Shown here one piece after another: positions 34,229-51,243 of a stretch of 64,000 bases of DNA. Origin of the DNA: Halorientalis regularis (lineage in GTDB: Archaea > Halobacteriota > Halobacteria > Halobacteriales > Haloarculaceae); NCBI RefSeq assembly GCF_023698535.1, contig NZ_JALJCL010000002.1, positions 186,001 to 250,000 of the forward strand, read 5' to 3'. Numbering within the stretch: the stretch's first letter is position 1; each line of letters opens with the position of its first letter. Both the position numbers and the translations under genes were made by a program. The notes below the pieces were generated by a model, which worked only from the letters and a program-made list of their open reading frames with translations, had not been told where the DNA came from and ran no database searches.

Positions 34229-34313
34229 GCCGAGGTAGCCTAGCCTGGCCAAGGCGGTTGCTTCGAGAGCAACTGTCCTCACGGACTCAGGAGTTCAAAT
34301 CTCCTCCTCGGCG
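34229..34313 (+). tRNA. tRNA-Ser (anticodon CGA)
   Basis: The acceptor strands GCCGAGG (34229-34235) and CCTCGGC (34306-34312) pair perfectly, with discriminator G at 34313. The anticodon stem is GTTGC/GCAAC around the loop TTCGAGA, so the anticodon is CGA, reading UCG. A long variable arm (TGTCCTCACGGACTCA) marks a class II tRNA, and the T-arm is AGGAG-TTCAAAT-CTCCT. No intron is present. The CCA end is not encoded. Five further copies of its 3' twenty bases follow. Confidence 0.95.
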
Positions 34314-35032
34314 CTTCTGCCGACACAACCCGACGAGCGCCGCGAGTCGGTACTGTCGGCAGAGCGGCGAGTGGAGTTTGAATCAGGGAGTGGAGCGAAG
34401 CGGAACGACTGTGGTTCAAATCTCCTCCTCGGCGTTCTCCACGAGCCAACACGGCGAGTGGAGACGCTGTACGGAGATTTGAATGAGAGAACACGCACGC
34501 TCGACCGAAGGGAGAGATCGTGTTCGCGTGGTTCAAATCTCCTCCTCGGCGTTCTCCGGCGAGCTATCCGCGAGCGACCGCAGAGCGGTCGCTCGCATCA
34601 CCGAAGCCGGAACGCAACTGGAGATTTGAAGTAGAGCAGTCGCAACCCGCGCAACGAGCGAAGCGAGTTAGCAGGACCGTCTGCGCGTGGTTCAAATCTC
34701 CTCCTCGGCGTTCTCCACGAGCCAACACGGCGAGTGGAGACGCTGTACGGAGATTTGAATGAGAGAACACGCACGCTCGACCGGAGGGAGAGACCGTGTT
34801 CGCGTGGTTCAAATCTCCTCCTCGGCGTCATATTCGCGGCGCAATACGGTGAGCGAAGCGAACCGTCAGCGCCGCGAATGACCCGCAGGAGATTTGAGCA
34901 GACGAGTCGCAGCCCCGGACCGGCCGAGCGAAGCGAGGGCGCACGCCCGGAACGTCTCGGCGAGTTCAAATCTCCGCCTCGGCGCTTCTGCCGACACAAC
35001 CCGACGAGCGCCGCGAGTCGGTACTGTCGGCG
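34294..35032 (+). repeat. array of tRNA-Ser 3'-end repeats with inverted T-arm copies
   Basis: The 20-mer TTCAAATCTCCTCCTCGGCG (T-loop to acceptor end) is in the tRNA at 34294 and recurs at 34415, 34532, 34691, 34808 and, with one change, 34965. Spacings are 121, 117, 159, 117 and 157 bp. The units 34415-34531 and 34691-34807 are almost identical. Every unit contains GGAG(A)TTTGAA, the reverse complement of the T-arm, and at least one further stem. About 50 bp after the tRNA (34311-34361) recurs exactly after the last copy (34982-35032). No believable gene lies between the tRNA and 35121. Confidence 0.85.
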
Positions 35033-35120
35033 TTCTCCGGCGAGCCATTCGCGTCACCGCTTTTCAAAAACCCACGAAGGAAGGCGGTGTAATCAAGAGG
35101 CGGCGAGTGTATGTGAGAGC

Positions 35121-49608: not shown

Positions 49609-51243
49609 CTAGTCGTCGGCGAGCACCTGCTCGGGTTCGTTCTCGATCAGGCGGTCGATGGCTTCGACCATGGCCTCGACCGAGGCCCGCGTGATGTCGG
49701 CGTCGGAGACGGCGACGGTGACGGAGTTGTCGCCGCGGGACATCTCCACTTCGACGGTGACGACGGCGTCGGTGCCGCCGGTGATGGCGTCGACGTGGTA
49801 GGAATCGAGCGAGGCGTCGGCGGCGTGGCCGAGCGCCTGCTGGACGGCGGAGACGGCGGCGTCGACGGGGCCGTCGCCGTGGCCCGACGCGACGCGTTCC
49901 TCGCCGTCGACCTCGACCCGCACGGAGGCGGTCGGGGTGCCCGACCCGCTCGCGGCGGTCATCTCCAGGAGCTTGACACGGCGCTCGCGGTCCTTGCCGA
50001 CGACCTCCTCGGCGATGGTGAGCAGGTCGGCGTCGGTGACGCGCTTGCCGCGGTCGCCGATGGCCTTGACGCGTTCGACGACTTCGTCGATCTCGTCGTC
50101 GTCGGCGTCGATGCCGTGTTCGGCGAGGGCGGCCTCGACGCCGGCGTGGCCGGCGTGTTTGCCGAGGACGAGCCGGCGCTCCCGACCGACCTTCTCGGGC
50201 GGGTAGGGTTCGTACATGGCGTCGTCCTTCAGCGTGCCGTCGGTGTGGATGCCGCTCTCGTGAGTGAAGGCGTTCTCGCCGATGACGGCCTTGTTCGGGG
50301 CCAGCGGGACGCCCGTCGAGCGGGAGATCAACTGTGCGAGGTCGTACACCTCGGTCAGGTCCATCGGCTCGACGCCGTAGCCGTGATCCAGCGCGATGGC
50401 GACCTCTTCGAGGGCGACGTTGCCAGCCCGTTCGCCGATGCCGTTGATCGTGCCGTGGACGAGGTCCGCACCCGCGGCAATCGAGACCAGCGCGTTCGTC
50501 ACGGCCAGTCCGAGGTCGTCGTGGGTGTGGGTGCTCGTCGGGCCGAGTTCGGTCATCGGCTCGATCCGTTCGAGCGTGTCGTCGGGCGTGGCGTGGCCCA
50601 CCGTGTCCGCGTAACAGATGCGGTCGGCCCCGGCGTCCATCGACGCGCTCATGAGTTTTTCGAGGTAGTCGACGCGCGCACGGGAGCCGTCCTCCGCGAT
50701 GACTTCGACCCAGAGGTCGTGGTCTTTGGCGTAGGCGACCAGTTCCTCCGTGTTCTGGACGTTCTCCTCGTGGGTCGTCCCGACTTTCGTCTCGATGTGC
50801 TTGTCGCTGCCCGGGACCACGATGGTCACGCCGTCCACGTCGCAGTCCAGCGCGAGGTCGACGTCGTTTTCGATCCCGCGACAGAAACTCGTGACCGTCG
50901 CGTCGAGGTCGAGGTCGGTCACGCGTCTGATCGTCTCGCGCTCGCCCGGCCCGGTGCAGGCGCTGCCGGCCTCGATGAAGTCGATCTCTGCTCGATCGAG
51001 TCCACGGGCGATGCGCGCTTTCTCCTCGGGCGTCAGCGACACGCCCGGCGCTTGCTCGCCGTCGCGAAGCGTCGTATCGAGGAACTGTACGTCGTCGACG
51101 TCACTCAGGTCCCGGAGCTGTGGGTGGCTCCCGAAGAAGCTACTCTCTGTCACAGTGTGTCCACCATCAGGCAGAACCGAGAATTTCGCGCCCAGCCGCC
51201 TTGCGGCGACTTCCTCTACCTCCGTCGGTGTATGGTCCGACAT
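49609..51243 (-). CDS. 2-isopropylmalate synthase / (R)-citramalate synthase family protein
   Basis: A 544-residue acyl-CoA condensing enzyme. The DRE-TIM barrel has 'VQFLDTTLRDGEQAPGVSL', the metal and substrate residues 'STHTHDDLGLAVTNAL' and 'GTINGIGERAGNVALEEV', then 'HESGIHTDG'. The C-terminal ~120 residues ('VRVEVDGEERVASGHGDGPVDAAVSAVQQALG') form the LeuA regulatory dimer domain that binds leucine or isoleucine. Whether it makes isopropylmalate (leucine) or citramalate (isoleucine) cannot be decided here; no leuBCD or ilv genes are adjacent. The N-terminal 30 residues are not conserved, so a later start near 'TESSFFGS' is possible. Confidence 0.85.
   Translation of the reverse strand: MSDHTPTEVEEVAARRLGAKFSVLPDGGHTVTESSFFGSHPQLRDLSDVDDVQFLDTTLRDGEQAPGVSLTPEEKARIARGLDRAEIDFIEAGSACTGPGERETIRRVTDLDLDATVTSFCRGIENDVDLALDCDVDGVTIVVPGSDKHIETKVGTTHEENVQNTEELVAYAKDHDLWVEVIAEDGSRARVDYLEKLMSASMDAGADRICYADTVGHATPDDTLERIEPMTELGPTSTHTHDDLGLAVTNALVSIAAGADLVHGTINGIGERAGNVALEEVAIALDHGYGVEPMDLTEVYDLAQLISRSTGVPLAPNKAVIGENAFTHESGIHTDGTLKDDAMYEPYPPEKVGRERRLVLGKHAGHAGVEAALAEHGIDADDDEIDEVVERVKAIGDRGKRVTDADLLTIAEEVVGKDRERRVKLLEMTAASGSGTPTASVRVEVDGEERVASGHGDGPVDAAVSAVQQALGHAADASLDSYHVDAITGGTDAVVTVEVEMSRGDNSVTVAVSDADITRASVEAMVEAIDRLIENEPEQVLADD

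Follow-up and report, generated by a model that had tools for sequence, protein, structure and literature searches.

Hairpin units carrying tRNA 3'-end copies follow tRNA genes across the class Halobacteria

The tRNA-Ser(CGA) gene of Halorientalis regularis is followed by five tandem units, each ending in a copy of the tRNA's own 3' end that faces an inverted copy of its T-arm. Such units belong to a family of structured repeats located at the 3' ends of tRNAs that occurs in about 99% of the sampled species of Halobacteria and is apparently undescribed in the open literature searched. They share one anatomy, are specific to the tRNA that they follow and covary with it, copy a sharply bounded block of it, and stand in polarised arrays that turn over among congeners. 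Our preferred reading, held tentatively, is that the array is a member of a family of gene-less, recombination-driven cassettes anchored at tRNA 3' ends, and we favour it over an essential RNA. The family bears on how tRNA genes end and how tRNA-linked islands start, and on whether folded single-stranded DNA recombines in archaea.

Results

An array of five units behind tRNA-Ser(CGA)

Within the window, the 64,000-nt stretch of the H. regularis genome analysed here, the array occupies 34229-35053 and is made up as follows.

34229-34313, + strand: tRNA-Ser(CGA), the anchor gene; the copied block is positions 53-73 (34293-34313)
34314-34434, + strand: unit 1; hairpin 1 at about 34315-34364, inverted T-arm 34373-34382, loop to 34413, tRNA 3'-end copy 34415-34434
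34435-34551, + strand: unit 2, 117 nt; hairpin 1 34436-34464, inverted T-arm 34473-34483, tail copy 34532-34551
34552-34710, + strand: unit 3, 159 nt; hairpin 34570-34596, inverted T-arm 34620-34630, loop with GCGAAGC-type tip, tail copy 34691-34710
34711-34827, + strand: unit 4, 117 nt, near-identical to unit 2; inverted T-arm 34749-34759, tail copy 34808-34827
34828-34984, + strand: unit 5, 157 nt; hairpin 1 at about 34835-34876, inverted T-arm 34888-34898 (one mismatch), tail copy 34965-34984 (one mismatch)
34985-35053, + strand: terminal remnant; the start of unit 1 repeated (to 35031), fused to a piece resembling the start of unit 3

The tRNA's final 20 nt recur at 34415, 34532, 34691, 34808 and 34965, and none of 100 shuffles contained any match. 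Inverted T-arm matches in the array number 10 against 0.24 expected, the arm at 34373 reading GGAGTTTGAA. Unit 3 contains a 12-bp stem (34570-34596), the two 117-bp units are part of a 142-nt repeat of 99% identity, and a 70-nt direct repeat joins the two ends of the array (34291-34360 and 34962-35031, 99%). The end itself is a mosaic, 35027-35053 matching 34546-34572 at 93%. All of the repeats and stems described in the original prediction were thus found and its entries were accurate; it overlooked hairpin 1 of every unit and the many further loci reported below. Four units of the array fold strongly as RNA (z = -3.0 to -6.1) and the foldbacks formed by inverted arm and tail copy do so as DNA (z = -3.0 to -4.0). 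The neighbouring genes are ordinary, with a MoxR-type AAA ATPase and a metallo-beta-lactamase-fold protein upstream and a cytochrome P450 downstream. Elsewhere in the window, a leuA-Halobacteria RNA leader (RF03001) was recorded at 51178-51229 on the - strand with 61.9 bits.

Unit anatomy

Each unit runs from a pyrimidine and T-rich stretch through hairpin 1, a linker, the inverted T-arm and a variable hairpin loop to the tail copy, and a T-rich stretch follows each tail copy as it follows the tRNA itself. The units contain no genes and have a median length of about 119 nt, with a median of 38 nt for the hairpin loop; at tRNA-Leu(GAG) of two congeners we saw unusually long units of 265 and 423 nt, with a common leader and no obvious genes. 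Hairpin 1 is conserved in structure (z about -2.6 over 70 units) and often has a GAACAAnnCGTGAG-like loop, which is similar at many different tRNAs. The copied block is exactly tRNA 53-73, with identity of 1.00 at position 53, 0.18 at position 51 and about 0.5 just past position 73. Full identity to the unit's own tRNA was found in 138 of 227 tail copies (61%), the acceptor part being kept about as well as the T-arm. Loop tips vary, and 140 of 180 have GNA-type triloops and GA/GA tandems. The GNA-type tips hint at folding as DNA, a hint of little weight since comparable hairpins are seemingly frequent in the rest of the genome; away from the tRNA units, imperfect palindromes bearing GA/GA tandems and a GNA or GNNA tip also occur (L013 1940-1990, L014 1700-2400).

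Distribution within the genome and across the class

When the source genome was searched with the array DNA, matches were returned from the 3' flanks of other tRNAs, and the identical unit plan was read behind Gly(GCC), Lys(CTT), Met, Gly(CCC), Ser(GGA) and others, with three units of 108 nt that differ in one base behind Lys(CTT). A parser run over all tRNAs called 47 units behind 24 of 62 tRNA genes by loose criteria, a first listing of which contains a few false calls within a tRNA cluster, and 24 units behind 15 tRNAs by strict criteria; the tRNAs concerned cover many isoacceptors. Many tRNA genes have no unit at all. Only 2% of loop pairs from different tRNAs of one genome are alike, from which it follows that units seldom move from one tRNA to another. 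Tail copies lying over 300 bp from a tRNA are rare, with 8 cases among the loci examined. Separately, no units occur in a densely packed group of about 20 tRNA genes, some with weak scores (G000:C4:112978-117203); comparable clusters lie in G637 C22 and at G002 2635124-2637763, and these unit-free clusters look virus- or plasmid-like.

Across the class, a foldback pattern (GATTYGAR, a gap of 22-52, then GTTCRAATC) was present in 389 of 394 Halobacteria genomes, and the reversed pattern, used as a control, matched none of the 394. In a sample of the phylum, 52 of 53 haloarchaea had the pattern. Outside the class it is at chance level: about 17 of 242 genomes of the phylum gave one or two matches, several of which resemble ordinary tRNA sequence. 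A separate scan found the feature in genera including Natrinema, Natrialba, Halorubrum, Haloarcula, Haloferax and Halobellus. Of the 34 matches listed for three complete genomes, 33 lie 20-281 nt downstream of a tRNA and on its strand. The original prediction had allowed for a duplication confined to one locus, should such arrays be absent elsewhere; that possibility is ruled out by units standing behind many tRNAs of the same genome, class-wide and nearly always adjacent to a tRNA. Among 35 tRNA flanks read in the five pattern-free genomes, just four held anything unit-like, which indicates that the feature can be almost absent and is dispensable.

Match to the local tRNA

The inverted arm follows the local tRNA. 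At base 57, A is matched by T in the arm in 147 cases and G by C in 18, with 9 mixed A/G cases, and at Gly(CCC), where the T-loop is unusual, the arm reads GAATTGAA. Pairing at T-stem positions 62-64 was 0.68 versus 0.42 when permuted, a level reached by 1 of 4000 permutations, in a test that sampled one unit for each of 28 tRNA types and that, like our other covariation tests, controls shared ancestry in part only. Complementarity drops outward from the core (0.77, 0.69, 0.53, 0.40), and pairing between linker and acceptor strand is weak but tRNA-specific, at 3.88 pairs against 3.32 with swapped acceptors. Covariation of the foldback with the tRNA suggests that a folded single strand matters, be it in recombination, as RNA or in templated repair.

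Two other readings of the pairing were tried and rejected. Ungapped mimicry of the full acceptor stem gave no signal past the T-stem, and gapped or folded pairing was weak. In cases of disagreement between a copy and its tRNA, the inverted arm is complementary to the copy 24 times and to the tRNA 37 times. This split does not cleanly separate self-pairing from tRNA-pairing, and antisense action in trans against the tRNA was set aside as the main role.

Turnover and polarity

Congeners carry 0 to 5 units at tRNA-Ser(CGA), in which hairpin-1 modules and loop modules are newly combined, and in one congener the tRNA is followed by hairpin 1 only. Arrays of at least two units are polarised, the last copy being worse than the first in 24 and the opposite holding in 4. 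Neighbouring units were more than 90% identical in 9 of 82 cases. At Glu(CTC) of the source genome, units 1 and 2 carry A57 and their own tRNA G57, while the tRNA of a congener (G079) carries A57; this variant suggests that units and tRNA genes exchange sequence. About 1.6 kb behind tRNA-Gly(CCC) (L013, C5) there is also a 1.5-kb segment ending in a longer partial tRNA-Gly copy, which, beside one hairpin unit, looks like an ordinary integrative-element scar.

Discussion

The exact and sharp-ended blocks, the intact tRNA, the polarity, the turnover and the dispensability are in keeping with cassettes that enter or leave by recombination at the T-loop. Each cassette would bring its own copy of tRNA 53-73, so that gain or loss would leave the tRNA gene complete, and its T-rich stretch and hairpin 1 would probably serve as a replacement terminator. 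The recombining form may be a folded single strand, whose arms would be the T-arm, with part of the acceptor strand, and its inverted copy, exchanged at the 5' edge of the T-loop (G53/T54) by an enzyme whose existence we infer. New units would then enter beside the tRNA and push older ones outward, and direct repeats would allow units to be deleted or duplicated. It should be considered that homologous recombination and templated repair alone could yield the polarity and the turnover, and that, against the cassette reading, the conserved structure of hairpin 1 is equally expected of a functional RNA. No dedicated recombinase could be linked to the units, tyrosine recombinases occurring in array-rich and array-poor genomes alike. 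Plasmids and phages gave no unit match with a mosaic consensus query, which makes for a weak test, and viral contigs gave none for one loop family, a looser pattern having given matches. That haloarchaea own a dedicated single-strand recombination system, with the T-arm as platform for tRNA-matched hairpin cassettes, integron-like without integron integrase or cassette genes, is a bolder proposal that we regard as quite improbable.

A functional trailer RNA is the alternative that we rate highest, although on balance it seems rather unlikely. The array would be co-transcribed with the tRNA and cut at every tail copy, the foldback mimicking the acceptor/T-arm top half with its processing site, and either the freed hairpin RNAs or the pairing itself would tune tRNA maturation or serve as small RNAs, a role of the sort claimed for the rtT RNA of E. 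coli tyrT. Units always downstream and on the tRNA strand, the T-rich stretch shared by copies and tRNA, the strong RNA folding, the tRNA-specific pairing that extends into the acceptor and a precedent in E. coli annotated as the small RNA RttR all fit such a trailer. Unit number at a given tRNA nevertheless varies among congeners, many tRNAs have no units and some haloarchaea almost none, no Rfam family covers the units, and hairpin formation does not require a T-loop exactly identical to that of the tRNA. Given the turnover and the near-absence in some haloarchaea, any RNA role is unlikely to be essential. The original prediction left both a processed RNA and serial att scars open; the RNA side has the conserved structure in its favour.

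The scars fare worse. Proviruses or plasmids using the tRNA 3' end as attB would leave identity blocks resembling the 53-73 block, and the segment behind tRNA-Gly(CCC) ends as such a scar might; gene-less units of about 120 nt on a conserved two-hairpin plan, an inverted T-arm that is conserved and covaries with the tRNA, and the rarity of big inserts between copies make simple large-element scars very improbable as the source of the arrays. Unlikely too, if far from so remote, is a neutral by-product, in which palindromes behind highly transcribed tRNAs undergo replication slippage, gene conversion and the template switching that perfects imperfect palindromes, so that arrays form, shuffle and stay matched to their tRNA with neither a dedicated enzyme nor a benefit. 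The outward fading of complementarity, the near-identical tandem units, the mosaic end of the window array and the variable tips with their GNA-type triloops and GA/GA tandems are all consistent with it. Set against these is the recurrence, behind many different tRNAs in almost all of the class, of one unit plan with identical block ends and similar hairpin-1 loops, together with the lack of this plan in other classes of the phylum.

Comparison with known systems

Bacterial REP/BIME and other palindromic families are short imperfect palindromes found in many copies behind active genes; unlike these, the haloarchaeal units are tied to the 3' ends of tRNAs, and each is matched to its own tRNA. 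Archaeal elements that target tRNAs (SNJ2, pNOB8/SSV types) resemble the units in preserving an intact tRNA by means of an exact copy of its 3' part, and the units do restore the tRNA 3' end at the junction. Such elements are however kilobases long and carry an integrase gene, whereas the units measure about 120 nt, include an inverted T-arm, hold no integrase or cargo between tRNA-end copies, and seldom have distant copies.

Integron arrays share more of the layout. The haloarchaeal arrays are likewise polarised with folded sites, place their boundary at G/TT beside a folded arm, and have foldbacks that, like attC, are imperfect hairpins, unpaired over an internal patch and variable at the tip. 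Integron cassettes differ in that the units hold no genes. Membership was rejected because no integron integrase (TIGR02249) scored above cut-off in any of 117 haloarchaeal genomes and because the units read GTTCRAA (GTTCAAA), which does not fit the attC R' box consensus GTTRRRY (PMC7923331); the layout is nonetheless alike.

The closest likeness is with the 178-bp distal repeats of E. coli tyrT/tyrV (rtT/RttR RNA, tpr), which also stand in tandem behind a tRNA and each end in its 3' end. The original prediction knew of no described system with this layout, which in view of these repeats is not entirely correct; of the haloarchaeal family itself we found no description among open-access papers. 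Reading the tyrT repeats directly (NC_000913 1286300-1288000), we see GGGGAAGGAT facing ATCCTTCCCC in each repeat, around a hairpin-rich loop with haloarchaea-like GAGCGNCAGCGAG tips, and perhaps a hairpin 1. Both systems therefore have an inverted arm opposite each copy of the 3' end, over different tRNA positions: in E. coli it spans T-stem and acceptor and not the T-loop, and the copies include the encoded CCA and begin about 4 nt later, leaving the T-loop start uncopied. The rtT RNA is reportedly processed to a small-RNA product, and RttR is annotated at the locus; the H. regularis array had no Rfam match to rtT RNA (RF00391), its tRNA alone giving a match at E up to 5. The E. coli type is a single locus in enterobacteria, with no tRNA-by-tRNA family as in haloarchaea. 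Within the open-access literature searched, the haloarchaeal units are a class-wide new form of a kind known from this one bacterial locus, and the puzzling tyrT repeats gain hundreds of loci for comparison.
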